64,000 nt of DNA from NCBI GenBank assembly GCA_963920705.1, contig OY987239.1, forward strand, positions 8,434,504 to 8,498,503, in the 5' to 3' direction. Source of the DNA: Odiellus spinosus (lineage: Eukaryota > Arthropoda > Arachnida > Opiliones > Phalangiidae). Shown here in pieces: positions 4,045 to 30,264 of the stretch (its first letter is position 1; each line of letters starts with the position of its first letter). Below the pieces are notes generated by a model. It had not been told where the DNA came from. It saw only the letters and a list, made by a program, of their open reading frames with translations, and did no database searches. Made by a program: the position numbers and the translations under genes.

Positions 4045-4050
4045 AATAAA
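4045..4050 (+). promoter_or_regulatory. Candidate polyadenylation signal for exon C
   Basis: AATAAA lies 56 bases after the stop of exon C. A second AATAAA lies at 4261-4266. Either could define the 3' end of a transcript ending in exon C. Confidence 0.4.
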
Positions 4051-7586: not shown

Positions 7587-10500
7587 ATGAGTGAATCTAT
7601 TAATGTCGAAGAATGTTCTTCGACAGGAAAAAGAAAATCTGGGTTATCGTAAGTAGGATCGTTACCGTTTTGTTCTTCAAATCTATGTTAAGCCTAGGCA
7701 ATTTGAAATACTTTCTATTCATTGTTCAGGATTAGTTAGAAAATAGCCAAACAACGGTGAATAAATACATTATGTTAACCACCATAGCAGTAAAATTTAA
7801 GGTTTGCTAACTCTTCTTGCTATGTAATGCATTGGAAGAGAGACTGTTTTAGTAGTCAACTGTTAGGGCTGAGTTGTTGCTACTCTCCTAGCTGCAAGAG
7901 GTGGGACTCTTGCCATTACTGTGTATGGGATGTCACTGTTTTTGAGAGTTCAAAACTGTTTTTGAAGTGATTTTGGGATTTCAATAATAATATCATAGAG
8001 TAGAGCATGTTCAGATTTTGGATTTTAGCTAAATTGTACGGCAAGCGTATGACTCTCAGCTTGTGGCACTGGCTTCAAACCCTTCTACATTTAGTTTGTG
8101 AGCTCTCTCGTTCTGTCAGAGAGATTTCCCACAATTCCATAAGTTTCGTCATTCCATAAAAACATGTTACTGGTGGGATTGATAAGGAAATGAAGAAGCT
8201 ATGATAGTTAATTTAAACTCAACAGCTTTGTAAGAATCGAGGATGATAGTAAAGAAAGTAACTTTAAATTGTTTATAATTGATTAATTTATCCTTTAGTA
8301 ATCCTTCAAAACGTCGTAAAAGTAGTTCCGACACTGAAGAAGATGACTGTCAGGTAGTTCAAAAGGTTAGTGATTGATATTTTTAATTATAAAATCCCAA
8401 CTGATCAATTGGAATTTGAAAAAAATTTTGTTTTTAGGAAATTGTATGTTCGTGCGGCCTAAAAGATGTTATTGCTAAGAAAGAGGCTCAAATCAAAGAA
8501 CTAACTCGTCAGTTGGACAAAGAAAAATCCAAGGTAAGAGTAATATGATTCAATTGAAATGACAAAAAGCAGTTCATAATTGGTTAATTTCATCTAAGCT
8601 AAGCCTTGGCCTAACATTAAATTTTTTATCATAATAACACAAAGCCTTAGATTTATCACGCTTGAGTAAACACAAGCACATTAAAGCATAATATTTATGA
8701 AGAAATCGCCTCTTCTCCGAGAGTTGGAGAATATAATAAGTGTAACACGTAGGTTACCCTTATTCCCTCCTTTTTCTCGCAGGTGACAACATCACAATAG
8801 GGCTGGAAACCCTATTTCATTATTCATGAATAAAAATAAAATATTCACTATTCCCTAGTAAAAGTAGTAAAGCGAGGTTCAACATACCTCTTGAGTAAAC
8901 AATTCATGGGGATAATGGGAAGTTTTTACGTGCTGCCGAATTAAGGATGACAAAATTATAGGGAGGGAACCAGCTGGGGGAAATAGCTTTAACAGCGCAA
9001 GAGGACCTTGGTCTGAGACTTACCGATGCGTAGGTTAAGCTGAGGGATCAGACACTCTTGAATTCGCTGTACACCTGAGTTCACTGAGTTCAGCTTTGAC
9101 AGTTCATTGAGTTAAGACTGCATAAGACATCCGAAAGACTTTCCCAAGACATCTTAAGGCTAACTTTTGTTTGTAAGGGTTGTTCGTTACCCTTGAGACG
9201 AACTTCCCCTCCTTCTTGGTGGCGCCTATTTAGTCGCACATAAAATTCACCAGAAACATCTGAAATGTCCGCTTGTCATCGATATAGTAGTTGAATGACT
9301 TGTTAATGGCTAGCAAGCATTAAAGCAAATTTTTTGATTAATATTTCAGTATGAAGAGTACATTACAACTGCTACGAAAAAACAATTGAAAAACAATTTA
9401 ACAATACTGAAGCAAAAAGATGAGATCGATAAACTCCTCAAAGACAATGAGGAACTCATGACGCTTGTCAAAGAACTCACGGTATGTTCAATCATTTTCT
9501 TCAGCAATATTAAATTAGATTTTAGTTTAGACAGTTCTTAAATTTATTTTCTTGGATAGAAATAATATTAATAGATCTCATTTAAATAATCTTCTATCAT
9601 AAATGGTGGCATTTGTTCCAAAAATCACAATAAAAAAAGAACACGTCGTTACAAAGTCAAGGTTATTAGAACTGACAATAAGAAATATTCCCATTAAAAA
9701 CTAAAAAGAATGTCTTTCTCGTTCCAACCTGTTTCTTTTAAATGGAATTAATGAACTATACTGGGGTAAAAATTTATTTTTATTGGAACTCGAGGTCCCT
9801 TGATGAATGATCTATGTTTGGTGTGAATTTGGTTAAAGACCGAGGCGAGAGAAAATTATTCTCATGCGCGAATTTCCGCCCCCCTTCTCAACATCTAGGC
9901 CGATTGACCACCCCTGGAGCGCGTGCACGGTCACTCTTTTGTAAGGTTCGAAAGAGGTTCCCCTATCATCGTAGTGGTGACCACTTTCACTGATTTTCTT
10001 ATATATTTATGCACTTGTAGTCAGCGAAGACCTGCAGCAGTACCGCTATAAAATATTGACAGCGTTTGTGAAAGTCGGTTATTTTATAATTGTCCCCTGA
10101 TAAGCAAAACAAGTGCATTTTTGGAAAAGAATAGAAAAAAAAAGAAAAAGTTTGGAAAATCCGACCCAACAGCGGTACTGCTGCAGGTGTTCGCTGTTTA
10201 CAAACGCATAAATATGTATGAAAATCAAAGAAAGTGGACACCACTACGATGATAGGGGAACCTCCTTCGAACCTAACAAAAGAGTGACCGTACACGCGCT
10301 CCAGGGGTGGTCACTCGGCTCTGATGTTGAGAAGGGGGGGCTGAAATTTTCTCTCGCCTCGGTCTTTAAGCAGAGGACGCGATATACAATTTGAGTGTTG
10401 ATCTTTTACTGGGATAGATGCTGCGGCATCAGATAAGTGGAAACTGTTTCATTATATTGAAAAAAAGTGGAAATGATGTCTTGCATATGCAAAAACAGCC

Positions 10501-11006
10501 TAGGGAATGTTTTTAAGTTTCTTGTGATTAAATTCCCGATATCATTTTGACAATATCAGGTTGTTTGTCTGCTGCAACTCCACACATAAATTTTGACTTT
10601 AAGAACTCTGTTCTCCTCGAAAAATAATATTTCACCTGGGGTGACTGCCTTTCCGGTTCGGAAATAAACGAAAACTTAATTTTAGCCTGAAATTTAGTGT
10701 CGTTTTTTTTTTTTAGAAACGCTTAATTTTAGGTTGATATGGACTAGTTTGTCAATATTTGCCTTATTTGTTTTCAGGACAAGAATAATACATTAAATGG
10801 TAAAATAGCGGCACTAGAATTACGACCGGAAGCTGAACGTCTAGCTAAAAGAGCAATTGAAGCTGAACGTCGCGAGCAATCTGATAGTAGTGATGACGAT
10901 GATCCCAGAAATAAAAAAAAAGAAACTCAACCCGAAATCTCTCCAAACACTGACATCCTCAGGCCGCAACTATTACATAAACTAGCCAACAATTCTAATC
11001 AGACAA
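7587..11006 (+). CDS. Constitutive 5' exons of a coiled-coil gene with alternative C-termini
   Basis: Five coding exons join with matching phases: 7587-7648, 8299-8365, 8438-8533, 9350-9481 and 10778-11006, with GT-AG boundaries throughout. The ATG at 7587 opens MSESINVEECSSTGKRKSGL, followed by a basic/acidic stretch (KRRKSSSDTEEDD, a possible nuclear localisation signal), a short CSCG motif, and about 110 residues rich in K, E, L and Q with heptad-like spacing (IKELTRQLDKEKSK, DEIDKLLKDNEELMTLVKEL), so probably a dimerising coiled coil. The fifth exon ends in a Ser/Asp-rich segment (SDSSDDDD). The last exon ends with one base of a codon (phase 1), the phase needed by every downstream candidate exon. 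I do not recognise the N-terminal family; it is not a BTB domain. The role is probably a nuclear dimerising scaffold that carries different DNA-binding ends. Confidence 0.75.
9837..10365. mobile_element. TTAA-flanked long inverted-repeat element in intron 4
   Basis: The ends AGACCGAGGCGAGAG and CTCTCGCCTCGGTCT are exact inverted repeats flanked by TTAA (9833-9836 and 10366-10369). The element is nearly a complete palindrome of about 530 bases: the inner halves (for example GCAGCAGTACCGCT against AGCGGTACTGCTGC) also pair. It lies between the fourth and fifth coding exons of the coiled-coil gene. TTAA duplication points to the piggyBac or Kolobok type of non-autonomous element. Open frames inside it are shadows of the palindrome. 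Confidence 0.85.
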
Positions 11007-11129
11007 GTATGTAATTTTTACTCTTATTTGTTGGTCCTCATTACGTTTCTTTGGTCACTCTCGTACCTTGTTTAATCTGTAGGCCTTATAAACTTAGATT
11101 CCAGCGACAATTGTTCGCATAAATTAAGA

Positions 11130-11565
11130 GGTCTTGGGGAAGTCTTTCATTACGTCAAGAAGTCTTAAGAGGTCTTGGAGAAATCTTTCATTATGTCAAG
11201 AAGTCTTAAGAGGTCTTGGGGAAGGCTTTTATTACGTCAAGAAGTCTTAAGAGGTCTTGGGGAAGTCTTTCATTATGTCAAGAAGTTTTTGCGAAGTCTT
11301 AAAGACTTCCCCACCCTTACCAAAAAAAGTTGGTCTTAAGAGGTCTTGGGGAAGTTTTTCGGGTGTCTTATATAGTCTTAAGAGGTCTTGGGGAAGTCTT
11401 CATTATGTCAAGAAGTCTTGTAGAAGTCTTAAAGACTTCCCCAAGACTTTTGTAGTGTTCTTCAGGACCTCTTCAGATCGGACTAACTTTTTTCCGTAAG
11501 GGCAAGACTTTTGTAGAGTTCTTGAGGATCTCTTCAGATCACTCTTTTTTTCGGAAAGGGTTCAA
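11130..11565. repeat. Tandem and dispersed GTCTTGGGGAAGTC repeat cluster
   Basis: Roughly 40-base units containing TCTTAAGAGGTCTTGGGGAA and CATTATGTCAAGAAG are repeated in tandem in 11130-11310. They continue into a copy with terminal inverted repeats CCCTTACC...AAAAAAGTT and AACTTTTTTCCGTAAGGG (about 11314-11502), then into a further half copy. Other copies of the same family occur at 24369, 25744 and 35173, with partial ones at 9117 and 17246. Probably a short MITE-like element in which internal units expanded. Confidence 0.75.
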
Positions 11566-12321
11566 AGTCCATCAGATATGGTATTAAAATACCAAGAAGG
11601 TATGGGATTGAAATAAACACATTGCTCCATAAAAATTATCTTTTGTTGAAGTCTATAACAAATATGGTAGAACTATCAATAGATTACCATGGATATAAAT
11701 GGTCAGGCAGCTTGCTGACAATCTATAAGTCTAGTCTTAGAGTTACCACTGTGTCCAAGGCATGGGTTGTAACACGGGAGAGATTTTAGAAGGACGACGA
11801 AGTCACATATACAATAGTACATGTGGTTTAGTGAGAGGTGATGATCATGATGTCTACCATCACGATGGTTCTCTCTTGTCAGGAGGTTCCAACTTGAAGT
11901 CCACAGTACTGTTCATGATGAACTATCTTGACAACTTGATGTTTAGCAGGCAACTGATAATCTTCTGCTGATTGCTAACCTTTCATACCAGTAGTAGGCG
12001 AGATAAAAATCTGGCTTAATGATAAAGAGAGGCCTACTGATTTTTATGCCTCTATAGAAGCTAGGTCTTTTTATTGAACCCATGGGGTTAAACAGATTAG
12101 AATCTGTTGCAATTACTCTGCGTTTCTTAACTATACCTCAGTGGAAATGTGCATTTTCATCAACGCATTATCGAATTACAAAATGTAAGCGATTGTAGAA
12201 AATGAAACACAAAATACTCTAAGCAACCAAATTGCACTTTTTACTGAAGAAATCTCAGTAATATTTAGTATTATATTCTTACTAGAGATTCTGAGAGATC
12301 ATATCTTTTTCTTTGGTTCAG

Positions 12322-12702
12322 ATTTGTTGCAAGCAGTAACGGTTAAAACTGAAGTTCTTGATTCGACGGAAGAGAACATTTTACCAAGTGATTTCATGGA
12401 ATTTGATGGTAACAACGATAGTGAGCCCGAAGTGACAACTGTTAAAGCTGGAAATATGAAACTACGTCCTCGTGGCGTACGCGTTTGCGTTAAAGAGGAA
12501 CCATTATCCGATGAAGATGATGAAGCTACCGACTCGTCGCAAGACCCGCATCCTAAGAATAAGAAGTCCGCACCTGTTCCTAGTGTTGCCAAAGAGACTC
12601 GCGTCACAAAAGAGACTAGTATTCAAGGAGATTCATCGAAATCTGTACCATCAGCCTCCGTAGCTTCAGGAAGTTCCACAGCAGCGACATCTGCTGGAAA
12701 TG
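12322..12702 (+). CDS. Phase-1 cassette exon of the coiled-coil gene, acidic Ser-rich
   Basis: An internal exon bounded by GGTTCAG and GTGAGC. Its first two bases complete a codon and it ends with one base, so it is a symmetric 1-1 exon that can be included or skipped without breaking the frame. It encodes about 126 residues: NLLQAVTVKTEVLDSTEENI, an LPSDFMEFDG motif, an acidic run (EEPLSDEDDEATDSS) and a Ser/Ala/Thr tail. VKTE and VKEEP resemble SUMO-acceptor sites (hydrophobic-K-x-E); that is inference. The exon at 24890 is a shorter paralogue. No folded domain is recognised. Confidence 0.75.
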
Positions 12703-14403
12703 GTGAGCTATTCCTTTTTTTATTCTAATCAAAGCGTGAGCTTATGAAGTAATAAGATAGACATATTTTATTCCAAGGGAAATTAAGTTACGCATGCACA
12801 CTAATCTCAACAGTGAGAGATATAGCACAAAAACTGAATATCTTAAGCGTCGATTAGCCTATAGGACTGTTAACTACTGTCCATGGCTCTCTGAGAAGGT
12901 ATAATAATGCGTATAGTTCTAAGATGGACATAATATTAACCTATAATTTGTATTTTATCCCATAATAGCTATATATATTTTTGGAAAGGTTGTTAATTTA
13001 CGCTTATAAAGTACAGAAAACAATCCCAAATCTGTTATTTATTCAAATCGATCGAACGCTGTTGGTTTTAAGGTAAACCTACTGAGCGAAGTGACATCTC
13101 TTCGGTTACTCACAACTTGATCATTTTGGATGTAAATATCCTATAATTTTAGCTTTTATATCTATAATACTTAATATCTTATAGATAAAGAGGAGTAACC
13201 AAACCTGTCGCCCTCTAACTTCAAACAGAGGTTATAAAGCCTTGAGTGTGGCTGCTATGCGGAAAGAATAGGTTGATGTGCTTGTCGTTTTTAGTTATTA
13301 CTTTAGCCTCTGCTTGCTGTTAGAGCTTTCGTATGAATGCCAGGTTTTGTATCTCCTCTCCAATAGTTAGCAGATCTCTGTCTGGAAAAAAATCTGTGCC
13401 CTAGTTACAAATTCCCAAGCGTATCTGCCGTAAGTCATGAAGTAGCATGATTTATGAGCACTTGATGAAAAATGATTGCATTATTCTAGAATAACTTCTA
13501 ACAGATTTTAAAGATTAAAAAAAATATCACACAAGATGTGCCACACTGAAAAAGTTGAAGAATGTTCTAGGACTCTGCGCGCGCACACACACATGGTAAT
13601 ATTAGTTACTACTTCTGTAATGTGGAGAACCGTTGGCTCATGTATGAAGGTCTCTTAATCTTTCTTATAATGTCAGGGTTCTTAACGAATGTCTAGGGAA
13701 TTTAATAATAGCCCAAAACTTGGTCAAGTTGAAAATAAAGATATCAGCTCTCTTAACTGAAAAATAGCGTCAAACAATGCGAACGAATGAAACCAGTTGA
13801 AATATCTTAGTTAATTTTGTTTGTGCTCGTCAATGGCCAAGGATGCTATGATCTAGGATTTTTAACAATTAACATCTATATCTTAATAGAAACAACTGAA
13901 TAATAATGCCTAGCGTTCATAAGCGTCCTCTAATGGCGAACAACTATCGAAGCCACATGTTTGGTTAGTTAATACCTATCTCTAAGTAGCTAGGTAACAA
14001 TGCTATCTGGGAGAGGTATTTCTGTCTTGTATGATATCAGCTTTGACATAAACTTGCACGCTGATGCTGATATTTCTCTCATCTGGAATAGAATTTTTCT
14101 ATATATTCCAAATATAGATCGGTTGTAAACCCTGAAATTAGATGACCTACTTGGCTAACCCCTGAACTTGTTTATAGTATTTGTCATTATGTTGAAAATA
14201 TCTTTCTGTGATCTCTCTGATTTTAAAACAATATATCATTTATGACCTTTGTCTTTAGTTTAAGTCTATGTATGGATTTAACCGCACATAAGAATAGGCA
14301 GCAGACAAAGCTCAAAATTGTTCTGGCCTAACCTAGTGGCCAAAATTAGAAAACTGGATTTTGAGGGTGGTATGTTTGCTGGATCAAATTTATTGTAAAA
14401 GGA
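12703..14403. other. Intron sequence of the coiled-coil gene, first part
   Basis: No exon with a credible acceptor, open frame and recognisable product was found. The sequence is AT-rich with a short CA-type run near 13580. Confidence 0.4.
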
Positions 14404-14712
14404 TCACAGATTAATCAACCTCACAGGGATAATTCACTCTGGTACGATTTTCTATACTAGTAGTTGAAGATGTTTGTTTCCAACGTGGATGCCAGGCATT
14501 TTATCCAGCCCCTCAATTTTATCCCCTTACCGATACAAATCCGGAAGTAATCCATGAGAGCATCGTCTGCTTTAGTTTTTTCCCCTTCAATATTTCACCC
14601 CGTGTATCGGTAGCTAGAAACCTCCGGTGACAATTTTTGTCACCAGGGTGCGATTCGAACAATCATTTTACCAGAGTGAATTATCCCTGTGAGGTTGATT
14701 AATCCATGATCA
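14404..14712. mobile_element. Inverted-repeat element, about 300 bp
   Basis: Left end GATTAATCAACCTCACAGGG and right end CCCTGTGAGGTTGATTAATC are exact inverted repeats. The pairing runs on inward for about 40 bases in total (ATAATTCACTCTGGTA against TACCAGAGTGAATTAT). GATCACA lies directly outside the left end and two to three bases outside the right end, a possible 7-bp target duplication with a blurred boundary. No coding capacity. Confidence 0.75.
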
Positions 14713-15737
14713 CAGTGTGCAATCAAAAGCTAGACTCTTTGATAATTCCTGGAATTTCACTTGAATTCTAGATAAGGATCATACTTATCTAGCTCTTTGA
14801 GTTTAAACATTATTTTTCAAACGGCCTCAGCTTACGGAATAACCAGCTACCATTTATTTACTGATAAAAAGTCTTAATCACTCTTTGGATGTGACAACCC
14901 CTTTCCTCTCTTGCTTGAAGCTGTCTGTCATAGAAGTTTGATCCAATAAGAGGGTAATAATGAAGGGGCTGACAACTAGAGCGCTGGACTGACTAGTTTA
15001 ACTTTCTTTTTGATCGTCTGTTGTCTATCCTTAGGCACTATAAATTCATGGTCTTTGGTAGACCTAACCTTTTCCAGGTAGAACTCCTGGGAGTCTAAAA
15101 CGTATGCTTATCTAATCTCGTGCTTTAAGTACGATCCTTTTATAATAACCTAACTTCGAGTCATCAGTCAAACGCACATTGAAAATTAAACAAAAAGTGT
15201 AGTTTCAAATAACATCGGCAATGTTGGGCAAAAAAACACAACCAATGACAAAGATACATCAATATCAGGGTAATTTTTTTAGGTAGCCATTGAAGTTTAA
15301 TATCCATTTAATGTTAATATACATTTATTGTTAATCTAACTTCTTATCACACTTGATCATCTTGAAATGGAAAAATTAACCGGAATAATAAATCCAAAGA
15401 ATATAGGGCTAACAATTTTGTGCGTGTGACTATTAGTTCGTACCATCTATGCAATTTATTTATCTGCAGTCGCAAAACTTTCGGAGGCCTTTTTAACTGT
15501 AGATATCTAAACAGACAATTCCATTGTTGGATTTAGTTTCATAGAGAAGCTTGGTGTAAAGTGTAAACATGAATGCTTAGTTACATTATGGAAAACAAAA
15601 ACTGCAAAAAATAAAATGCAATACGAAGAACCTGTTAAAAAGAAGATCTACGAAGAATCTTATGGAATTATTATAAAATAGGAGAATTCATTTCCAATTT
15701 CCATGTATAGGCGCCATAAAATAGTCATCTGTATATC
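14713..15737. other. Intron sequence without recognised features
   Basis: AT-rich, with no exon, repeat end or RNA gene seen. Confidence 0.4.
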
Positions 15738-15741
15738 TTAA

Positions 15742-16475
15742 AGGGTAAATGAAAACTGCTATATCACTTACGTATTTCTGAATCTACGTTATCGAAAACC
15801 TAAGAAAAATATCAATTCTTATTTTTAAGCATCTCCTAAATAAAGGTTTTAAAGATCGGACTTAGTTGTCTGCTACAAAAAAGCATGGAGCCCCGTGTTT
15901 GAATTTCCGAGGTGGGTATCGAACCAATAGGCGCTCTCGCGAAATCCCGCTTGCTCGTGTATAGTATAGTTTATATTACCGTAGCCTCCTAGAAGCGCGA
16001 GCGCCGCCGCCGAAGCGCGTGATATGGGACTTTAAATTGAATAAAGGCGCGTGAGTTTGATTTAGGTTTAGCATTTTTAAGAGTATATAATTTTTTGCTG
16101 TGCTTAAGTGGGCGTTTCGACTTAAATAAATTTATTTAGATGAATTAATGTTTTTTTAAATAAAGGAAAACACAATTTCGAGCAGTTATTTCGCTATCAA
16201 AGGTATTTAGCCTGATTATATATATGATTTATATGGTTTCTCTGGGGTCACGTTATTTAAACGGCCCCTATTGGTCGGATACCCACCTCGGAAATTCATA
16301 CACAGGGGCTCCATGCTTTTTTGTAGCAGACAACTGTGTCCGATCTTTAAAACCTTTTCTATCATATTTAGGAGATGCTTAAAAATAAGAGTTGATATTA
16401 TTCTTAGGTTTTCGATAACTTAGATTCAGAAAAACCTAAAATCAAGAAAGTGATATAGCAGTTTTCATTTACTCT
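15742..16475. mobile_element. TTAA-flanked element with about 200-bp inverted repeats
   Basis: The ends AGGGTAAATGAAAACTGC and GCAGTTTTCATTTACTCT are inverted, with TTAA on each side (15738-15741, 16476-16479). The arms stay similar for about 200 bases, including GGAGCCCC and GGTGGGTATC against their complements. The unpaired centre has a GC-rich core near 15990-16025 (GCGCGAGCGCCGCCGCCG). No transposase frame is present, so it is non-autonomous, of piggyBac- or Kolobok-like TTAA type. Confidence 0.85.
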
Positions 16476-16688
16476 TTAAACTAGGAATATAATACTCGTG
16501 CCTCTGGAACAGAAAATTGTATTCCACAACACGAGCTGCGCGATTCATCTACGGCTGACTCTGCCGAGCCAAAATCGACGGACATAGTAGGTAGCGCCAT
16601 CATATGATAGGCGTAAGAAGCTCAAAATATATAATCAAATATATAATTTGTAATAAAATTAGTCTGCTAAATAGTATTTCAAATTAAA

Positions 16689-16766
16689 ATGGGGAGATAT
16701 TGCTGTTTCGATAATTGTCGTAGCGATTTTAGCAGCCAGGAGAATTTAACTTTTCATCCAGTTTAA
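16689..16766 (+). pseudogene. Possible THAP-domain fragment (25 aa)
   Basis: ATG 16689 opens a 25-codon frame, MGRYCCFDNCRSDFSSQENL then TFHPV, ended by TAA at 16764-16766. The C-x4-C spacing and the following FHP resemble the first third of a THAP zinc-binding domain, which normally runs to about 90 residues. The rest is missing. An AG at 16674 would enter the frame in the phase used by the other alternative exons, which may be chance. Most likely a relic of a THAP gene or P-type transposase. Confidence 0.3.
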
Positions 16767-16924
16767 AAACATGGACGAAAATAGTAATATAGTTTCTCAA
16801 TTTCTCCGTTAGGTGGCAGTCTATAGCTATGTCACGCACATTTCAGTATGCCGTTCATGCAACACTTGCTTTCTTCTCCAGAGGTCCCCTTTCATACTCC
16901 TAGCTTTAAATACCCGCATGAACA

Positions 16925-17205
16925 TGTCTTTATATCTAAGCTTTATAAAGTTATTTTATCTTGAATACCTGTAAACACGCCTTCATATGTAATCTTGTCA
17001 TTTTATCTTGTATACTCGTGCAAATGCTCCTTTACATATAACCTTTATTAAGTCATTTTTATCTTGGACACTTGCAAAATCGCGCCTTTATATCTAATAT
17101 TTTGACATTTTATCTTGGATACCCGTGTGAACGCGCCTTTATATCTAATATTTTGTCATTTTTATCTTGGATACCCGTGTGAACGCGCCTTTATATCTAA
17201 TCAAT
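16925..17205. repeat. Tandem repeat, unit about 55-65 bp
   Basis: About five imperfect tandem copies of a unit containing TTTATATCTAATATTTTGTC and CTTGGATACCCGTGTGAACG. The last two copies are nearly identical and the earlier ones more diverged. Confidence 0.75.
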
Positions 17206-17614
17206 CTATAAGAAAATTTTAAATATCTTCGAAAATACAAGGTGGTTCAAATAAAGACTTCCCCAAGACATTAATAGTGTTCTTTAGGACCTCTTCAGAT
17301 GAGACTAACTTTTTTCAGTAAGGGGTAGTCTTTCAAATAAGATGGAATTATTGTTGTGGTGATGTCTTCCTTCAACTTAAAAACAGTGTTCGTTAAAATG
17401 TTGTTTTGAAAGTTCTAGTTGCTAGTGTAAAATCACATATATTTGAGCTACAAAATACCCCAATTATGAGCTATATTAACACCCCTTTTGGTTTAAGTCT
17501 ATATCTGGATAATTTTAAATCCTAATGAGTGCGTGCCCCAAATAAACTCGATTAATGTCGGATTTTAAATGGCCAATGGTGTAATTCGCATTTTATTTTT
17601 GCTATCTTACGCAG

Positions 17615-18051
17615 GAAATGCAACGCCTGCGGCTTACACCTGTCGAAAACGGACCCATAGCTGTATCAGGGTAGATAACTTCGGTCCGCATAGTAAAAAT
17701 AAGCCCTGCCAGTCTGAAGTGTGTGATTTTGTGTCCTCAGATTTGAACATTCTTGTGGCCCACCAAGTTAAAAAACACGGCGCTAAACCGTTTAAATGTT
17801 ACGCGTGCGATCACACAACTTCATACCATTGGGTTTTAATCCAACATGAGGAAAAACATTTGGAAGACCTACCTTGTAAATGCGATCATTGCGGAATTGG
17901 TTACGAAACCCAATACCGCTTATACAATCATATACGTAGGATGCATACGCGAGGGCACGAATGTCATGAATGCGGTTTTAAAACAGAGTATGCGCGTAAT
18001 TTAAAAGCTCATATGCGGAAACATCGCCGTTATCAATGCGATAGTGATTAG
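17615..18051 (+). CDS. Alternative terminal exon F, Cys/His leader plus four C2H2 fingers
   Basis: Terminal exon after the acceptor TATCTTACGCAG, entered in phase 1 so that the G left by exon 11006 or 12702 completes GGA. It ends at TAG 18049-18051 and gives about 145 residues. A leader of the form C-x3-RTHSCIRVDNFGPHSKNK is shared with exons G and H but is not a standard finger. An irregular finger follows (C-x4-CDFVSS...HQVKKH), then CYAC, CDHC and CHEC fingers. The pre-acceptor sequence (TAATTCGCATTTTATTTTTG) is conserved in G and H. The product is probably a DNA-binding isoform of the coiled-coil gene. Confidence 0.8.
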
Positions 18052-18470
18052 TTTATGATAAAATATGGTTCACGATACCTATGAACTATGACTACTCAAT
18101 AAGCTATTTTTAGTTTTTTCTTTTTAAGTAAGGTCCTAATTGTTACCTATTTTGCCCTTTGATATTTGTTTTAATTTCTCTTGCTCGTGGGTTATCTCTT
18201 AATTGAGGCTTTAAACCTCAATTATTATCCTTTTTAAATTTTTTCTTCCATCATTTTTGAATATTTAAACCAATTTTGGCGTCGTTTAAATGCTGTATCG
18301 TTCAGCATTGTTATTTTTCTCAATCCGCGAGTGATATCTAGCTAGGTTTTTATTTTTTAGTAGTTTTCTGCTTCTTGAACTAATTAATTTGCGTTACTAA
18401 AGCGCATTGAACTTGGATTCGTTATGACCGAAGATGTAATTCGCCTTTTATTTTTGCTTGTCTTACGCAG
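18052..18470. other. Spacer between exons F and G
   Basis: AT-rich presumed 3' UTR of exon F and acceptor region of exon G. The last 40 bases match the conserved pre-acceptor block. No exon seen. Confidence 0.5.
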
Positions 18471-18928
18471 GAAATGCGCCTTTGAAGACTTATTCCTGCT
18501 CAAAACGGACTCATAGCTGTATCAGGCTAGATAACTTTGGCCCGCATAATAAAAACCGGCCTTGCTTGCCCGAATTGTGCGATTTTGTGTCCTCCGATTT
18601 GAACGTGTTCATATCCCACCAAATTAAGAAACACGGGGCCAAACCCTTCAAATGTTACGCGTGTGATTTCATCACAGCTTATCACTCTGTTTTGATTCAA
18701 CACGAGGAGAAACATATGGACTTCATGCCTTACAAATGCGAGAAATGCAAAACCAGTTACAAAACTGAGCACAATTTAACGAGTCACATGCGTAGATTTC
18801 ATAGTCAAGTTTATAAGTGTGATGAATGCAATTATAAAACTGATTACGAGCGTTGCTATAAAGCTCATAAGCGTAATCACGACTTGAGGCGGCTTAGGCA
18901 AAGTGACAGCGATTCGAGTGATTATTGA
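18471..18928 (+). CDS. Alternative terminal exon G, Cys/His leader plus four C2H2 fingers
   Basis: Near twin of exon F. The acceptor is TGTCTTACGCAG, entry is phase 1 (GGA AAT), and the stop is TGA 18926-18928, about 152 residues. The leader RTHSCIRLDNFGPHNKNRPC is followed by C-x4-CDFVSSDLNVF...HQIKKH and fingers CYAC, CEKC and CDEC. The tail is Ser/Asp-rich (SDSDSSDY). The fourth finger has DYERCYKAHKRNH, an extra Cys in the helix. Differences from F are concentrated in the helices of the last two fingers, which suggests a different DNA target. Confidence 0.8.
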
Positions 18929-19594: not shown

Positions 19595-20136
19595 GACTAT
19601 CTTATGCGACGTCCTCTGGTAAATTCGCCTGTCAAATGAGGACTCATTCCTGCGTGAAGGTCGATAACTTTGGTCGTCATAGTAAAAATAACCCTTGCAC
19701 ACGTCAACGGTGCGGTTACATGGCCCCGAGTTTAAACCTCCTGGTAGCGCACCAAGTTAGAAAACATACAGATAAACCTTTTAAATGTTTTGATTGCGAT
19801 CACGCGACCGATTATCACGCTGGTTTAGTTCTTCATGAATTGACTCACATTGAAGAACGCGAGTTTAAATGCGATAAATGTACGCGTGGTTTCATGACCA
19901 AGTACAATTTGACTATGCATATGCAAAAACACGGCGCTGATATGCCTCACAAATGTGATAAATGCGATTTAGGTTACGAAACACGGGCCGGCTTATATCT
20001 GCATACTCAACGATATCATAGGCTACTTTTCGAGTGCGACGAATGTGATTATAAATCTAGACGCAATCGCGCGTTAATTGCCCACAAAATAAGACACGAT
20101 CGGTTTCGGCAGTATCAAACTGAGGACACTGATTAA
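19595..20136 (+). CDS. Alternative terminal exon H, Cys/His leader plus five C2H2 fingers
   Basis: Third member of the F-G-H set. The acceptor is ATCTTTACGCAG, entry is phase 1 (GGA CTA), and the stop is TAA 20134-20136, about 180 residues. The leader RTHSCVKVDNFGRHSKNNPC is conserved. The irregular finger is C-x4-CGYMAPSLNLLVAHQVRKH. Fingers CFDC, CDKC, CDKC and CDEC follow, one more than in F and G. It is the most diverged of the three. Expected to supply a DNA-binding C-terminus to the coiled-coil gene. Confidence 0.8.
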
Positions 20137-21476: not shown

Positions 21477-21480
21477 TTAA

Positions 21481-22292: not shown

Positions 22293-22296
22293 TTAA

Positions 22297-23176: not shown

Positions 23177-23734
23177 ATTTCAACCAAGGCACTAAAATTT
23201 CTACGGGAGCAGTAACTACCAGTGAAGCGGAAAGTGACATTGAAGTCATCGTCTCCCCTCAAAACAACTATCCAAACGCGACATGTTTGACAAGTACATC
23301 GCATTCTACAACATCTTTCACCAAAGCTTTCACTAAAGAAATTAGAGATTCAGCCTTAACTAAATTGGAGAGTGACTTTGAGACCATCATTCCATCACAA
23401 TTAACTTTAACCAATCCTACCCCTAGTGAATATATCGTACCCTTCTTCGAAAGTATTATACCCTCTGATTTTCCAAAATTGGAAGATGGCATTAATATGT
23501 GTGGACAATTACGGGTTAATTCCTATTCAAGCGCGGCAAGTACCTCGCGAAATCCAGAATCTTCTGCCAAAGATACTATAATGAATACAGTTTTGCCAAA
23601 TTTGGAAAGTAGTGTCAGACTATCGCAAGGTAACTTTAACGCGAGAAACTCTTGTTCAACCGCATTTTGTGCTTCAAGTTCCTCTACATCTGCAGTGACT
23701 TTGGCTGAAGAAACACCCTCTTTCGGTACTAGTG
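23177..23734 (+). CDS. Phase-1 cassette exon, Ser/Thr-rich
   Basis: A symmetric 1-1 internal exon between TTTCTTTAG and GTAAGC, about 185 codons with no stop. The product is rich in Ser and Thr (TSTSHSTTSFTKAFTK, SAASTSRNPESSAK) and carries a repeated short motif of the type ESDFETIIPSQ and ESIIPSDFPKLE, related to LPSDFMEFD in exon 12322 and ILPNDCLEV in exon 24890. No folded domain is recognised. Its phase allows splicing from 11006 or 12702 and onward to 24890, 26478 or other terminal exons. It probably encodes a flexible linker in the transposase-type isoform. Confidence 0.65.
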
Positions 23735-24368
23735 GTAAGCTATTTCAATTCATTTAAGTTAATTTTTAGACAAGTAATAAAGGAAGCAGCTCAATAGACT
23801 CTTTTTAAACGATTCGGTCTATTTATGAGTAAAATATTATCAAAACTCACCAAAGGTTTCAAGACTATTTACAATTAATTAACGAAGTCACAAACTAAAT
23901 TCTTTTGAAGAAAGTTTCTGATGCCATTGACATATTGTGAACCTTAGCTCTATAGTCTGCACTGTTTCTAAGAAACATCTCATTTGTTTCATGCGTCATT
24001 TTAAAGATAATCCCATTACCATAAGCCTTAAACTGTTACATTATTAACTGAGAATTGCTACGGAGACTTTGGTGATAGTTTTATGTTTTAAAGAGAGAAT
24101 TCAACCGAACAACAAGTTATTTTTTTTACAAACGGATATTTAACTCGAAATTAATTTAAAACTTATCTTAACAATGAACTACATGATATACAAGCAAGCC
24201 AGTTGTTGATAATGGTTCTTTCTTAAATACCGACTTTTTTGGACAAGAAACAGGATCTTAATTCGTGAATCTTTTTGCCTGACTGATATCTATCATGGCA
24301 TTTTTCGCCCGCTTCAGTTGACTCATTAGGTGTTAGATTTGGCGCTCGAAAGATTTTAGGTTGTGTTG

Positions 24369-24556
24369 CCTTACGGAAAAAAGTTAGTTTGATCTGAAGA
24401 GGTCTTCTAGAACGCTACAAAAGTCTTGGGGAAGTCTTTAAGACCTCCCCAAGACTTCTTGACGTAATGGAAGACTTCCCCAAGACCTCTTAAGACTACA
24501 TAAGACACCCAAAAGACTTCCCCAAGACCTCTTAAGACTAACCTTTTTTGGTAAGG
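24369..24556. mobile_element. Short inverted-repeat element (CCTTACC family)
   Basis: Left end CCTTACGGAAAAAAGTTAG and right end CTAACCTTTTTTGGTAAGG are near-exact inverted repeats. The body holds the GTCTTGGGGAAGTC and AAGACCTCTTAAGACTA units seen in tandem at 11130. About 190 bases, no coding capacity. Confidence 0.8.
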
Positions 24557-24889
24557 GTTAGAAATTATTTTGGTGGTGTTTTACTGCAACAGATTTTCTG
24601 ATGGCAAAAAATCATGAATATGTATCACACCACAAAAATGCATGCATAAGCAACATATGTTCGCTAGCAAAATCACCTAATTCTAATGTAAAAACAGCCT
24701 GGGATTAAGATTAAGTTCGCGAGCTTGGTGAAAGATCAGTTTGGCATAGCCCAAGTCAGATTGCATGTCTACTATAATTTCAAACGCATCAAATGTTTAC
24801 AATGATTATCTTCAAGGCTCTAAAATCATGAACAGCTTGGTTATGTAAATGTGTGTTTTTCTTTGTCTTGAACGCAAATTTTATTTCAG

Positions 24890-25024
24890 AATTATTCCAA
24901 GGGGTGAATGTCAAAGTAGAAAACCATGATTCAACGTTGCAATATAACATTTTACCAAATGATTGTTTAGAAGTACAAATCAGTACTCCTGAGGATGCCA
25001 TTGCAGGCACGTCTACGCAAAATG
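24890..25024 (+). CDS. Phase-1 cassette exon, short paralogue of exon 12322
   Basis: A symmetric 1-1 exon between TTATTTCAG and GTAAGT encoding about 44 codons. The product starts ELFQGVNVKVENHDSTLQYN, followed by ILPNDCLEV. Side by side with exon 12322 (LLQAVTVKTEVLDSTEENI, LPSDFMEFD), the two share position and residues over some 30 positions, so they arose by exon duplication. The V-K-V-E and V-K-T-E stretches are again SUMO-site-like. It lies directly upstream of the transposase-type terminal exon. Confidence 0.65.
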
Positions 25025-26477
25025 GTAAGTCAATATTTATTATTTTGTGTAATGTAATTTTGATAAGTATGACTGTAGAATTATTCTAAAGAAAATGATC
25101 AAAATCTGCTCTTTCTCTGCCCTGACAGTTATTTTGCAAATATTAAATTAACTAAACCCTGCTTAGTTTGTGTTGGTTCATCTGTTTTATCTCTCCAGCC
25201 ATACTTGTTATTACTTTGTTTTATTATCCTAGCCAATTATGTTAGGCTTGAAAATTGGGCGTGTTTCGTTCTACTACACGATGGTGATTAAAAATTGTGT
25301 ATCTATCTATTACGGTACATTAATTTAAACATCCTAAACAATCCTAGGTGTCAGATGATAAAGAAGTTTGCTTTAGTAGATCTAAACTCTGATTGCCTTA
25401 CAAAATCAATAATTTTATGAGGTCTCCAAGTGTCCGTAAAGGTTTCTCGAAAAGATCTTGAAGAGCTTGTTTTGTCTGCCTCCATTTGTTTGTCAGAACC
25501 TTGGGTTCTTTACTTGGTGGGAGTTTAATTACCACTCCTAGGTTTATTAATCCTATCCGTCACGTACTATGGTGACTGGAGTCAAGATCAGTAGAGATAT
25601 TTGCAATTCAGGTAAGAATGAATAAACCGCTACGTTCGTCAAATGTAGTAAATGAGGAAAACCCTATTTTTCTATATTTCTTACATAATTTTTGCTTTTA
25701 AGGCCCCTTTACTCTAAAAATATACACATGGAAATTAAACAATCCTTACCGAAAAAAGTTAGTCTGATCTGAAGAGGTCCTCAAGAACAATACAAAAGTC
25801 TCGGGGAAGTCTTTAAGACTTCCACAAGACTTCTTGACATAATGAAGACTTCCCCAAGACCTCTTAAGACTACATAAGGCACCCGAAAGACTTCCCTAAA
25901 ACATCTTTAGACGTCTGGAAAACCTTTTTAAATGGCAACTTTGTGAAAAAACTTGTTATACAAATTAAATAAAAGCGTTTATAATTGAAGTAACTTTTAG
26001 TTCTAAAATTTTGAATGTTTTTTTAAATAGTATGATAAAACTAAATATAATGGATATTCAATCGAAAAAATGGTGACAACCTCCGTTTAACTTCAGCTAA
26101 TAATACTTCTTAAAAGGAGTGTAAGGCAGAGATTTGTGGTGGATGACCAAAATATCTCTGCTGCAATTTGATCTTTATAACGCTATTAAAACTAACACTA
26201 AGAACGTTAGGAAACAAACCGTTGCATTTGGTTTTACTCACATTCATGATATTGAAGAAATTATTCTTTTTATCACGCTGAAATCATTCAGATAGTCATG
26301 AATGATTAAATTATGTTAAAGTTTCTAAAAAATGTGTAAAATTTCACTACATTTTTAATAGTTTGAAAAATTTTAAAATATAATCCCTTGACCTTAGACA
26401 AAAAGGGTTATGGCTAGTCTTTTTAAATTCTAATGTTATAAGGTTATTGCCCAATTGCAGTATTGAAACTTTTTTAG
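25025..26477. other. Intron upstream of the transposase-type exon
   Basis: Contains another copy of the CCTTACC inverted-repeat family at about 25744-25925, whose right end is decayed. Otherwise AT-rich with no exon. It ends with GAAACTTTTTTAG, the acceptor of the next exon. Confidence 0.5.
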
Positions 26478-27712
26478 ATGATCCAGTTAATGAAGTCGCT
26501 AAGAAAATCAAAGGAAGGCACAAAGTATGGAGCAATAGCGCAGAGATGAAAAAAGCTATGGAAGATGTTCAACAAAATAGAAAAAGTATAAGAGCCGCTG
26601 CTAAAGAATATAACATTCCCTTAGCGACTCTGCACAACAAACTCACTGGAAAATCAAACCTAGTTAATAAGCCTGGACGAGTTCCGTTGTTGTCTGCCCA
26701 AGAAGAATCTGACTTGGTCAAATGGGCTGTAAAAATGAATCGAATTGGATATAGGCAGATCAAATATCAAATCATCAATGAAGCGAAAAATATAGTAATG
26801 AAAGAGGGGCGAAATAATCGACCATTCAAAGAAGGTGAAACGCCGGGGATACAATGGTGGAATAGTTTCATCAAACGAAATCCTCAAGCAATGTTAAAAA
26901 TTCCAGCATCAGTAGACTTGTCTGGAGTAATAACATGTCCTCCGAGCATCGTGGAAAATTTGTTTAAGGAATACCGTGACTTTTTGAAACTTCATAACAT
27001 GCTTCTAGGATGTGGGGAACAAATTTGGAGCTTGCACGAATTTGTCTTTCCTCTTTATCCAAAATCAGGGGAAATTGAATCGCTGCCAAAAAATGTGCTT
27101 CGTATAACAGGCGACCAAAAGTCCCAAATTATTGTTCTGTGCGCAATTTCAGCTAGTGGAAATGTTCTCCCTCCTTACCAAGTGCACAGCTCTTCGCGTT
27201 CCATATATAATCCACTAGAAAATGGAGTTGAAGGGTCACGATATGCAATTTCTAAATCAGGTTGGATGACAAGTGAGATATTCCACAGTTTTTTAACCGA
27301 TCATCTCATGCCATCTCTTCCAAAAACCAGACCCATAGTTTTGTTAGTAGATGGCTACACTAGTCATATTGATATTGAAATAAGCCACTTTTGCGAACAA
27401 AACCAAATTGAACTCTTTTGCTTGCCCCATTATGCGTGTCACGCTTTAGAACCATTAAACGTATGCATTCTTAAATCAATGAAATCCAATTGGATAAAAG
27501 CAATTCAAGAATTTCAAACTAAAAATCCTTGCGAAACTGTTGACCAAAAAAACTTTTCTACAGTATTTAAAAAGTGTTTCGAACTATCCATGTCCGCGAA
27601 GATAATTGTAAATGGTTTTCGGTCCAGTGGGATTTATCCGTGCATCGACGAAACAAATCTTATACCCTCTGAGTTGGTTGAAGCGGAAAATCAAATCTAT
27701 CCTAAAGTTTGA
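26478..27712 (+). CDS. Alternative terminal exon encoding a domesticated pogo-type transposase
   Basis: Entered in phase 1 after AACTTTTTTAG (G + AT gives Asp) and ending at TGA 27710-27712, 411 residues without a break. Domain order matches the Tc1/mariner pogo-Tigger group: an N-terminal psq-type HTH (about residues 20-60, AMEDVQQNRKSIRAAAKEYN), a CENP-B-type HTH (about 75-135, ending TPGIQWWNSFIKRNP) and a DDE region. The catalytic set is broken: the usual DET position reads LHEF, the second site is kept (LLVDGYTSH), and the third reads EPLNV instead of PLD. Two of three acids are therefore missing, so cleavage activity is unlikely, while an intact frame suggests selection for DNA binding. 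Paired terminal repeats were not found. It could instead be a separate pogo relic gene; the acceptor and phase favour fusion. Confidence 0.75.
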
Positions 27713-28804
27713 GAAAAGACAGGGAACATGTCATTACATCACCTTATAAAAAAACAAAAGACAGTCTGGATAAACGTGGAGTGATGGTCAATCGAGTACT
27801 TTTAGCTGCATAAAAAAATGTAAAAAAAAAAAAGTAAAGGGAGAAGTGAGTCTTCGTACGGTTACGCCAGATGGCGCCAGGGACTCTATACCAGCTCCCG
27901 CTTGAGAGAAAACTCAACTGTCGAGAAAGAAGGTAGAACAACGAGAAGAGGGAAAATCTGCCCTTTTTTAGGAGCGACGACGAGGGGAGTAAACCCTCTG
28001 AAAGCTACGTTCCTTCCCCAACTACCTCTGTATTTCGAGGCATCTCTTTATAACGTGGAGTGATACGTCATCACTCCACGTAAAAAGATTGGAAGCAAAG
28101 TGAAATTAAAATAAATGAATTGCAAGAGCTGGTTTCCAAGTTCAAAGCTAGTTGCAACTTTTATTTTTTCCATGCTACTATCTACATAGCCAAAGTGTAC
28201 GATTAACGTTAAATTTCCAATAATTAGAATCCATGGTAACGATATTTGAAAACTTTATTAAAGAAAGAAACGCATGGAGATGAAGGAGCGAGGTTTTATT
28301 GTTAAAAAACTTTAAATTTCTGAAAAATACCACAAATCCTTAGAAATAACCTAAAATCAGTATTAAAGTAATTTCAGAATTAAGGCTGAGAAATGTAGAT
28401 TTTTAAATAAATTAAATAATTTGAGCAAAGCTCACTTTTTTTCTTTTTTTTTTTAATCTTAATTTACTAATTCAAGAACACTATTTTCTCATGATATTTA
28501 ATTTGTAACAAAACAGTTATAATTACTAGCAGAAAAAATTATTTTAAATAGTTTGTCTTCTAAATAGTATTAGGGAATTTATAGTATAGAGATATGTAAC
28601 AATGTTCGACATCAACACTACCAGATGTCCATCTCTAACGCTAACAGATGGCTCTATGGTTTACACTAACAAAATAAAACAACTTTACACGAGACGAACA
28701 AGATGTCGTATTTAAATCATTATTGTCGTTTTGTAAATAACTCGGTAAAAATAATTGAAGCAAATTAAGATGATAAATTATTGTAATTTCAATTTTTTTT
28801 TAAG
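27713..28804. other. 3' UTR and spacer after the transposase exon
   Basis: AATAAA at 28110-28115 is a candidate poly(A) signal. A 12-bp-arm hairpin (ACGTGGAGTGAT, loop, ATCACTCCACGT) lies at 28053-28081, and a third copy of the arm is at 27774-27785. The end is pyrimidine-rich (TTTTTTTTTAAG), a good acceptor for the next exon. Confidence 0.5.
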
Positions 28805-29031
28805 ACAATATGAATACTGAAACTCGGCAAGAACGCAAATTGCGACTCAATCGTGAAAGACAGCAAAGATGGAAAGCACGACAGAGTCAAGAAACTTTGA
28901 AGCGTATAAATCAACAAAATGCGGAGACGAAACGCCTACGACGGCAATATGAATTGCCTGAAAATGCTCAGGCTCGAAGAGCGCAACAAGCTCAACAGAG
29001 GCGCTTATCTAGGCTAAAACAACCTGCTTAA
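28805..29031 (+). CDS. Candidate terminal exon with STPR-like Arg/Gln-rich repeats
   Basis: A short open frame of about 75 codons ending at TAA 29029-29031. After the acceptor TTTTTTTTTAAG the entry is again phase 1 (G + AC AAT ATG). ATG 28810 could alternatively start a 73-residue protein. The sequence (ERKLRLNRERQQRWKARQSQ and so on) shows two to three degenerate repeats of roughly 23 residues, each rich in Arg and Gln with a RxNxE or QxAE centre. It resembles the STPR helical DNA-binding repeat known from silkworm FMBP-1 and from other arthropod proteins. It is shorter than typical STPR arrays. Whether it joins the coiled-coil gene or is a small gene of its own cannot be decided here. Confidence 0.5.
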
Positions 29032-29167
29032 GAACACGAAGTCATTAAAGAAATATTAAATTTATAAAACAAAGAATTTTGCATTATTTATAAAAATAAG
29101 AATATAAGAATTGCAGTACAGAAGAGAATTGTGTTTTGATTTGTATACCATTAGGACATAAAAATAT

Positions 29168-29490
29168 GGGGTTGCCACAGGTCCGGGAAAACGGAGAAAA
29201 GTCAGGGAATTTGAAAATGAACCAAAAAAGTCAGGGAATTTTAAGATATTCTAAAAAAGTCAGGAAGTTAAAGATCTTTCAAGAAGCCAGGAAATTACAA
29301 TTATTATCTGCAGAAATGATTTGATATGTTAGTTGCATAGATTAGAATAAAAATACTCGTGCAAAAAGTTTGGCAAAATGCAATTATATAAAAAATAAAA
29401 TAAAAATAATTGGGTAGTATTAGCTGAAACGGTCAGGGAAAAACCTGGAAAAGTCAGGGAATTTGAATCAAAAAAACTGTGACAACCCTG
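29168..29490. mobile_element. Inverted-repeat element with GTCAGGGAATTT body
   Basis: The ends GGGTTGCCACAG and CTGTGACAACCC are near-exact inverted repeats. The body has several AAAAGTCAGGGAATT units. A related copy is at 35356-35600. No coding capacity; a MITE-like element. Confidence 0.65.
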
Positions 29491-29791
29491 AAAAAACTAA
29501 TTAAACAAAAACGAGTTTGTATCAAACCCGTAAAGGGGACAGAAATTACAAATTAATAGCTATAGAAGTTGCAGTGTAATTATTTTTGAATTATAGTTAA
29601 TGGTTTAAGTTGTCTACTTTATGGATTTTCTGATGTTTTCAAAATTTTGTGAATAGCATGAAACCCTATCTGATCATTACCATGGAGGCTGTGAGACTGC
29701 AGCTAATTAATATCGTTGAGTGTTTTCATAAATTAAGTGATTACGGCTTGACTAACCTTCGGTTTTTGGTTGTTTTTACTCTATCAATTAG

Positions 29792-30264
29792 AAAAAGCAT
29801 CAAGAGACGATATATTGATTTTCAAATGCGATTTGTGCGAGTACGTCAGTACCAGCAGCAGAGGTTTGAAGCGACACAAATGTCGTTCCGTTGATCAATT
29901 GATCAAGTGCAAGTTTTGCGATTACACCAGTACTCTAGCATCTGCCGTGAAAATTCACCAGGGAAATCATACGGGTGAACAGCCACATAAATGCGACCAA
30001 TGTGATTATGTTTCTGCACATCGCGGTCATCTTAAAAACCATATGCAGCGTCACAATAATGACTCGTCGTTACGATGCCGTTTGTGTGATTATGTTGCCA
30101 CTAGGTCCTGTTACTTAAAAGTTCACTTAAGAAAGCATACTGGTGAAAGGCCCTATAAATGTGATCAGTGTGAATATACTAGTGCTCACAATAACTGCTT
30201 GAAACTGCACAAACAGCGTCATTTTGATGAAGTGTCGTTTAACCTTCAATTGGGTCGTCTGTGA
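29792..30264 (+). CDS. Alternative terminal exon I, five C2H2 fingers, truncated tail
   Basis: The acceptor CTATCAATTAG, preceded by TTGTTTTTACT, gives phase-1 entry (G + AA) and the stop is TGA 30262-30264, about 157 residues. The fingers begin CDLC, CKFC, CDQC, CRLC and CDQC. The first ends RHKC, so its second His is replaced, a C2HC-like or lost finger. Linkers TGEQPH and TGERPY are classical. Past the stop, and past a second TGA in the same frame, 30301-30480 still encodes a finger-like tail, so the exon has been shortened by mutation. It may end the coiled-coil gene or another one. The shared phase and acceptor style tie it to the arrays. Confidence 0.7.

Follow-up and report, generated by a model that had tools for sequence, protein, structure and literature searches.

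Tandem leucine-zipper genes of Odiellus spinosus with a predicted choice of DNA-binding 3' ends

Can one coiled-coil head serve a whole set of unlike DNA-binding ends? This question is raised by positions 7587-30264 of a stretch of Odiellus spinosus DNA of 64,000 nucleotides (G000:C17:8434504-8498503, here called the window). A sequence-only reading had drawn five head exons, three cassettes and six terminal exons at this locus, which we call gene B. For the present analysis, 80 kb of upstream DNA was taken from the same genome. We conclude, with a probability of roughly 0.72, that gene B and a second gene upstream of it, gene A, each have a leucine-zipper head and a cassette that would be spliced to one of several mutually exclusive DNA-binding 3' ends in phase 1, gene B with two foreign ends. 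The joining of head and ends is inferred strongly for the C2H2 finger ends, moderately for terminal exon T5 and more weakly for terminal exon T4. Gene B consists of the following exons.

7587..7648, + strand: head exon 1, 62 nt, equal in length to candidate exon 1 of gene A; start codon and basic KRK
8299..8365, + strand: head exon 2, 67 nt, equal in length to gene A exon 2; KRRK, acidic and serine-rich
8438..8533, + strand: head exon 3, 96 nt, phase 0-0; coiled coil
9350..9481, + strand: head exon 4, 132 nt, phase 0-0; coiled coil and first part of the leucine zipper
10778..11006, + strand: head exon 5, 229 nt, ending in phase 1; remainder of the zipper and an acidic tail
12322..12702, + strand: cassette C1, phase 1-1; contains VKTE and VKEE
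17615..18051, + strand: terminal exon T1, C2H2 fingers, phase-1 acceptor
18471..18928, + strand: terminal exon T2, C2H2 fingers, phase-1 acceptor; paralogue of T1 (60% identity)
19595..20136, + strand: terminal exon T3, C2H2 fingers, phase-1 acceptor; paralogue of T1 and T2
23177..23734, + strand: cassette C2, phase 1-1
24890..25024, + strand: cassette C3, phase 1-1; short paralogue of cassette C1
26478..27712, + strand: terminal exon T4, derived from a pogo transposase; D186 to H and D327 to N (T4 numbering)
28805..29031, + strand: terminal exon T5, start of a repeat rich in Arg, Gln and Glu; own ATG at 28810
29792..30264, + strand: terminal exon T6, C2H2 fingers, phase-1 acceptor

All of these coordinates, as drawn by the sequence-only reading, were borne out. 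Joined together, the head exons form an open frame of 195 residues that ends in phase 1. The cassettes have lengths divisible by 3 and are each of phase 1-1 as drawn. Cassettes C1 and C3 are homologous (56% over 27 aa, E 6e-5); homology between C2 and C1 was not demonstrable (E 0.5), and a Pfam search with C2 gave nothing at E 0.01. At the sequence level the locus has the features of a gene of the lola/mod(mdg4) type, namely common 5' exons, one junction phase and several terminal exons, with T4 ambiguous. The open reading frames (ORFs) of at least 70 codons listed for 5900-33900 include no further one that we recognised as a likely 3' end for the coiled-coil gene ahead of the V-ATPase C gene. 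A palindromic repeat family resembling miniature inverted-repeat transposable elements (CTTGGGGAAGTC / GACTTCCCCAAG) was seen at 11133-11445, 17256, 24425-24526, 25847 and 35230-35289, in introns of gene B and of the V-ATPase C gene.

Splice sites were scored with a matrix trained on the 10 introns of the V-ATPase C gene (33930-38373), which avoids picking acceptors to fit. These introns were placed by reading the encoded protein, which matched solved subunit C chains at 544.9 bits and Pfam V-ATPase_C at E 3.3e-151. The window has 11 terminal ORFs (six of gene B and five at 755-5923), and in 10 of these a phase-1 acceptor was the best or the only one between the upstream in-frame stop and the domain. 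The top-scoring acceptor was also in phase 1 in all three cassettes, and phase-1 donors scored highest for C2 and C3. Phase 1 had been claimed for every downstream exon, and this holds for the exons as drawn, with two reservations: the acceptor of T4 is not the best-scoring one, and at C1 a phase-0 GT at 12660 is slightly higher (2.11) than the donor at 12703 (1.58). Measured against the GTs and AGs of the window, the head donors of gene B lie at the 93.7-99.8 percentile, the head acceptors at 95.6-98.9 and the terminal acceptors at 88.0-99.4. For C1, C2 and C3 the percentiles are 95.5, 96.3 and 74.5 for the acceptors and 70.8, 94.7 and 99.4 for the donors. Because the C2H2 ends are paralogues, as are C1 and C3, the shared phase is partly due to descent and the 11 events are not independent. 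Of the 11 terminals, only T1, T5, U3 and U4 contain an ATG in frame ahead of the domain; the other seven lack one and therefore need an upstream exon.

The strongest support for a non-BTB head followed by a phase-matched 3' menu, as had been proposed, came from gene A. Its head was found upstream by tblastn with the gene B head (E 1.3e-5). Gene A is a tandem paralogue of gene B and starts 14.6 kb upstream of the window. Together with its five C2H2 terminals at 755-5923, it had been missed by the sequence-only reading. In the list, L010 and L009 are upstream loci.

L010 5360-5421: gene A head exon 1 (candidate), 62 nt
L010 6767-6833: gene A head exon 2, 67 nt
L010 9007-9093: gene A head exon 3, 87 nt
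L010 9161-9292: gene A head exon 4, 132 nt
L009 489-606: gene A head exon 5, 118 nt, ending in phase 1
L009 671-985: gene A cassette, 315 nt, phase 1-1
L009 6480-7558: gene A terminal V1, C2H2, phase 1
L009 9142-9869: gene A terminal V2, C2H2, phase 1
window 755..1350, + strand: gene A terminal U1, C2H2, phase-1 acceptor
window 1923..2383, + strand: gene A terminal U2, C2H2, phase-1 acceptor
window 3256..3989, + strand: gene A terminal U3, C2H2, phase-1 acceptor
window 4422..5182, + strand: gene A terminal U4, C2H2, phase-1 acceptor
window 5535..5923, + strand: gene A terminal U5, decayed C2H2, phase-1 acceptor kept

In all, gene A has seven phase-1 C2H2 terminals, five of them inside the window. 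The head phases (2, 0, 0, 0, 1) and the 1-1 cassette are identical in the two genes. The head exons measure 62, 67, 87, 132 and 118 nt in gene A and 62, 67, 96, 132 and 229 nt in gene B, with exons 1, 2 and 4 equal. Exon 1 of gene A is the least certain exon, since it was picked as the single candidate passing a set filter (ATG, GTRAG donor, phase 2 and basic pair). Exon 4 is 48.8% identical between the genes over 43 residues. Over 69 aligned codons of exons 3-4, 32 residues are identical, the proportion of differing silent sites (pS) is 0.71 and that of differing replacement sites (pN) is 0.30, which leaves silent sites almost saturated. By this comparison genes A and B are tandem paralogues in which a single head-and-menu architecture has been duplicated. 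We accept head, cassette and menu as one gene mainly because their order and phase were kept through this deep duplication.

Residues 101-135 of gene B form five heptads (IDKLLKD NEELMTL VKELTDK NNTLNGK IAALELR), with I, N, V, N and I at the a positions and leucine at all five d positions. The score of this zipper was reached by none of 5000 shuffles of residues 44-150. In gene A, heptads one to four repeat this pattern, with I, N, V and N in the a positions and leucine in each d position. The idea of a dimerising scaffold is therefore supported by a predicted zipper whose a and d residues recur in the paralogue. Pfam shows no BTB in either head. A bZIP_2 match in the gene B head covers only profile positions 24-52, at E 0.032 and below the cut-off; it is limited to the zipper part, and the head therefore has a zipper without the bZIP basic region. 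The basic clusters KRK and KRRK and the acidic serine tracts suggest a nuclear protein. Comparison of the gene B head with PDB gave five weak matches (best E 0.074), and no relatives were found in GTDB contigs.

C2H2 fingers above the Pfam cut-off were found in T1, T2, T3, T6, U1-U4, V1 and V2; a Pfam search with U5 gave no match at E 0.01. T1-T3 are tandem copies, and T6 is closest by BLAST to U4 and U3 of gene A. The ratio of replacement to silent substitution rates (dN/dS) was 0.17 for T1-T2, 0.17 for U1-U2 and 0.10 for U3-U4, at dS 1.5-3.1. The pairs T1-T3, T2-T3 and U1-U3 were saturated, with pN/pS of 0.39, 0.43 and 0.47, respectively. As read from these ratios, the C2H2 ends are under constraint. 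In four shared finger positions, T1 and T2 differ at 7 of 16 predicted contact residues. Decay of the menu is visible in the sequence as well: U5 is without a Pfam match, and in T6 finger-like remnants run on past the stop to about 30471.

The introns before part of the C2H2 ends also carry a conserved acceptor element. Over the last 34 intron bases, matches numbered 31 for T1-T2, 30 for T1-T3, 28 for T2-T3 and 31 for U2-U3, and within V1, U1, U2 and U3, 26-31 positions agree. As a control, 171 acceptor pairs were compared, drawn from the 10 V-ATPase C acceptors and nine gene B acceptors other than those of the C2H2 ends; their mean was 21.8 and their maximum 26. No excess was seen in the next 106 bases upstream in the pairs compared. 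The acceptor of V2 agrees with those of the other ends at 21-27 positions. The acceptors end in AAATTAG/GT in V1 and U1-U4 and in TTACGCAG/GA in T1-T3 (the slash marks the junction). The sequence TTATTTTTGCT has four exact plus-strand occurrences in the window, before U2, U3, T1 and T2. Genome-wide, the element gave 12 matches with up to three mismatches, compared with 3 for the reversed pattern; the two exact matches were U2 and U3, and a further one was U4. Two plus-strand matches among the other nine had no C2H2 in the next 900 bases, and the seven minus-strand matches were not looked at. Selection probably acts on this short stretch, given that the exons concerned are themselves almost saturated at their silent sites.

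A further finger array was observed at G000:C5:24279918-24367569 (L043; L044 7798-8487), with many C2H2 ORFs of about 170-245 codons. In L043, eight such ORFs lie 1.05-1.4 kb apart and begin mid-finger; by a crude pyrimidine count the leading AG is in phase 0 in four of them and in phase 1 in the other four. From its sequence this array looks like another menu gene.

T4 belongs to the pogo (Tc1/mariner) group, as DDE_1 (PF03184) was found at E 1.2e-18 and 67.7 bits, with a cut-off of 22. Its helix-turn-helix (HTH) match to HTH_psq reached 19.8 bits against a cut-off of 20.4; the relative L003 reached 28.4 bits. The genome holds 42 other matches to T4; the best reach 46-47% identity, and many are fragments. 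Five of these 42 (L002, L003, L006, L007 and L008) were used for a column count, in which L006 and L007 look like mutual copies; L004 and L005, with the same scores as L003, were left out. At least four of the five aligned relatives agree in 161 columns, of which T4 keeps 110 and loses 51. The lost columns include D186 (D186H) and D327 (D327N), which we take, by the pogo family motif, to be two of the three catalytic Asp. On this assignment of positions, T4 would not have the full set of three, and it is probably enzymatically dead with the helix-turn-helix kept. PMC7325037 gives the pogo catalytic motif as DDxD. T4 has an open frame of 442 codons; those of its six longest relatives run to 787-885 codons, with a stop in two of the six.

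From the upstream stop to the HTH, T4 and the five pogo relatives all lack an ATG in frame, and judging by the relatives the pogo family therefore seems dependent on a 5' exon. The top-scoring AG before the HTH is in phase 1 in L002, L003, L006 and L007 and in phase 0 in L008. A phase-1 TTTAG/GT lies 8.7 codons before the motif in L002 and L008 (4.52 and 3.89), with other AGs scoring higher there. With regard to a host-transposase fusion of the CSB-PGBD3 type, a phase-1 acceptor (TTTTTTAG/AT) is present at 26478; it is plausible from its sequence, though outscored by two phase-2 AGs. No match to T4 was found in the gene A region by tblastn, in viral contigs or, up to E 1, in PDB. Terminal inverted repeats around T4 were rejected, as the best 12-mer match (11/12) was reached by 10 of 300 shuffles. 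A fold from the single sequence had a predicted local distance difference test score (pLDDT) of 34.5 and was not used. L002-L008 and C45:824001-840000 form a multi-copy pogo family with a long C-terminal extension and a Cys cluster.

T5 had been described as STPR-like, as one of at least three end types. C2H2 and pogo (DDE_1) stood, and STPR proved inexact. At E 0.001 the genome holds only two relatives of T5, L046 (C8:15383312, 67%) and L047 (C8:15389421, 63%). These two repeat ORFs, of 261 and 203 codons, each follow ORFs with finger-like motifs on the same strand. The repeat of L046 has a period of 27 (112 identities at 27 vs 27 at 23), not the 23 residues of STPR; T5 itself is too short and degenerate for a period. 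At the DNA level, T5 is 82% identical to L046 over 217 bases, beginning 16 bases before the exon, with a further intron match of 46 bases; identity to L047 is 77% over 217 bases. Because this identity begins before the exon, the T5 piece was copied as DNA together with its acceptor. The AG before the repeat is in phase 0 in L046 and L047 and in phase 1 in T5, by way of two extra junction bases. This phase change fits the slot of gene B and is suggestive, as a single event. L046 could also start at its own ATG. For T5 vs L046 and L047, dS was 0.37 and 0.49 and dN 0.19 and 0.24, giving a dN/dS of about 0.5. T5 would have moved into gene B rather than out of it. No match to T5 was found by tblastn in the gene A region or, up to E 5, in PDB.

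In the mechanism that we propose, each gene would have one promoter. The five-exon head, with its phase-1 donor, would be joined in cis, through an optional or constitutive phase 1-1 cassette, to one terminal exon. The terminal exons would be mutually exclusive, each with its own DNA-binding module and 3' end. The head would make every isoform, presumably nuclear, a dimer, either a homodimer or an A-B heterodimer, and the chosen end would set the DNA site. Gene B would have gained two foreign ends, the pogo transposase of T4 and, in T5, a relative of the repeat exon that two finger-bearing loci carry on another contig.

Several observations weigh against this proposal. T4 is the sole exception among the 11 terminals, since phase-2 AGs at 26443 and 26398 outscore 26478. 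The acceptor of C3 (74.5 percentile) and the donor of C1 (70.8 percentile) are weak. The codon scores of T4, C2 and C3 are like those of non-coding DNA, being reached by 57, 61 and 31 of 172 null ORFs, and that of T5 is marginal (16 of 172); the training set included U1-U4 and so favours the C2H2 exons. For T4 such a score would be expected of a young transposon-derived exon, and equally of a decaying one. Poly(A) signals counted over 700 bases beyond each stop were indecisive (1, 3, 5, 5, 6 and 2 for T1-T6 and 3, 0, 2 and 1 for U1-U4, with 2.1 expected). U4, U5 and T6 hardly have the conserved acceptor (21-27 positions for U4, the 27 being with U3; 20-25 for U5 and T6). No intronic pairing partner for the element was found beyond shuffled controls: docking-site pairing was rejected, as duplex energies for T1, T2, T3 and T6 in 12703-17500 fell within the range of 10 shuffled elements each. 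Since T5 carries its own ATG (28810), it could instead form a small gene of its own. An ATG in frame with T1, at 17569, falls within the pyrimidine tract and has no counterpart in T2 or T3, and independent starts for the ends were rejected on this ground and on that of the seven terminals lacking an ATG before the domain.

It is possible, if somewhat doubtful, that the C2H2 menus are joined to the zipper head and that T4 and T5 are not, being separate genes or decaying intronic insertions. The ambiguous acceptor phase and the codon score of T4 would fit this, translation of T4 could begin at an internal Met 23 with most of the HTH retained, T5 has its ATG, and neither was found in the gene A region. 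However, T4 has a frame of 410 codons that is still open despite two lost Asp and has no ATG before its domain, and the relatives L002 and L008 have their phase-1 TTTAG/GT, even though higher-scoring AGs occur there. T5, for its part, lies in copied DNA that includes an acceptor shifted from phase 0 to phase 1, and has a dN/dS of about 0.5.

Trans-splicing as at mod(mdg4) would give the ends, or groups of ends, their own promoters, and the heads of A and B might then share ends. The mRNAs of mod(mdg4) are reported to be made in this way (PMC12692577) and those of lola partly so (PMC1947980), and the phase-1 acceptors of all A and B ends fit both heads. We consider this unlikely here: each of the ends found has a head upstream of it on its own strand, for which cis-splicing suffices, and the acceptor ends differ between A (V1, U1-U4) and B (T1-T3). 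An improbable reading by comparison is that of independent small C2H2 genes, with undetected 5' exons, behind an unrelated coiled-coil gene, phase 1 being coincidence or descent. The C2H2 ends are indeed paralogous and their common phase may be one event, but the order of head, cassette and menu occurs with the same phases twice in tandem, and the ORF list for 5900-33900 offers the coiled-coil gene no other likely 3' end. We therefore keep to two zipper genes with alternative 3' ends.

Paralogues of head exon 4 were found in at least nine other places on contigs C45 and C1 (E 0.003-0.035, 35-42% identity). The four that were read have 132 nt behind a TAG acceptor, with a GT donor in three and GC in one. 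Of the loci L052-L055, which hold exon-4 copies, two also contain a copia-like end. Five of the nine paralogues have pogo relatives of T4 no more than about 17 kb away; these places look like copies of one segment and are probably one event, not five. Pogo lies close downstream on the same strand in one of the nine (C45:836721 and 834121; head 2.2 kb upstream). The head was not found in the 5 kb before the other long pogo copies at C9, C1 and C169 (three of three negative). The idea that the transposon carries the head was rejected on these three, with the one C45 place having a head; head and transposase may share a mobile history. More tentatively, A and B could be open-slot regulators, in which the phase-1 junction serves as a landing place and any DNA-binding exon that brings or gains a phase-1 acceptor becomes an isoform. 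On this view gene B would have acquired the pogo and repeat exons, with its C2H2 ends multiplying and decaying meanwhile.

Other features of the window lie downstream. A tandem repeat of about 30 bases was seen by eye in a V-ATPase C intron (35600-36470). Exons of methylthioadenosine phosphorylase and EF-hand, calcyphosin-like exons (named by eye) are at 41542-43179 (- strand) and 47588-49052 (- strand). An inverted-repeat element with ends CCGATGAAACCCTCCTTTGAAG occurs in several copies (47266-47591, 49430, 50922-51245 and 53849-54176). An 18-base minisatellite, GGAAAAGTGTCATAGCGT, is found at 56327-56842 (24 exact units) and, as the reverse complement, at 62918-63197 (9 exact units), about 6 kb apart.

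Among known systems, mod(mdg4) of Drosophila has a BTB head and FLYWCH ends. As described in PMC12692577, its four common exons are joined to one of many alternative 3' terminal exons, exclusively by trans-splicing and with exons also on the opposite strand. Common exons and alternative ends are as predicted for A and B; here all ends found are on the strand of the head. Drosophila lola likewise has a common N-terminus and produces 20 or more isoforms that differ in the C-terminal exon chosen, the majority bearing zinc fingers; both cis- and trans-splicing are used (PMC1947980). The same text lists C2H2, C2HC and three finger-less isoforms, so that the earlier statement that known genes use one class of C-terminus was overstated. 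The lola head is BTB, whereas A and B share a zipper-bearing head that belongs to no Pfam family, is duplicated in tandem with its menu and, in gene B, is followed by two foreign-looking ends. A and B would thus work like lola and mod(mdg4) but without their BTB head. What would be new in the arrangement is this zipper head; the splicing logic would be the same. No equivalent menu gene with a non-BTB head was recognised in open-licence papers, which cover the literature in part.

The arrangement predicted for T4 would resemble CSB-PGBD3 of primates, in which a transposase within an intron serves as an alternative 3' terminal exon, in frame with those of the host (PMC2268245), but that case is a piggyBac element and a single fusion in a gene without a menu, with RNA and protein shown. 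For tetrapods, 106 host-transposase fusions from 94 events, captured via alternative splicing, are given in PMC8616336 (reporting Cosby et al. 2021); here the transposase would be one choice among several dissimilar DNA-binding ends. According to PMC7325037, pogo elements have been exapted repeatedly. With the STPR proteins FMBP-1 and ZNF821 the T5 relatives have a charged repeat in common, and many L046 units have Glu 4 and Arg 9 when read against PMC4821344; the STPR unit has 23 residues, that of L046 27.

The best-known multi-ended insect regulator genes rest on BTB heads. If the reading of genes A and B is true, the same splicing design can arise on an unrelated leucine-zipper dimeriser, and regulators would be buildable from interchangeable last exons, one of them from a jumping gene. 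In T4 and T5 one could then directly observe a transcription-factor menu being assembled by exon capture, and see by what route a foreign exon reaches the right splice phase.

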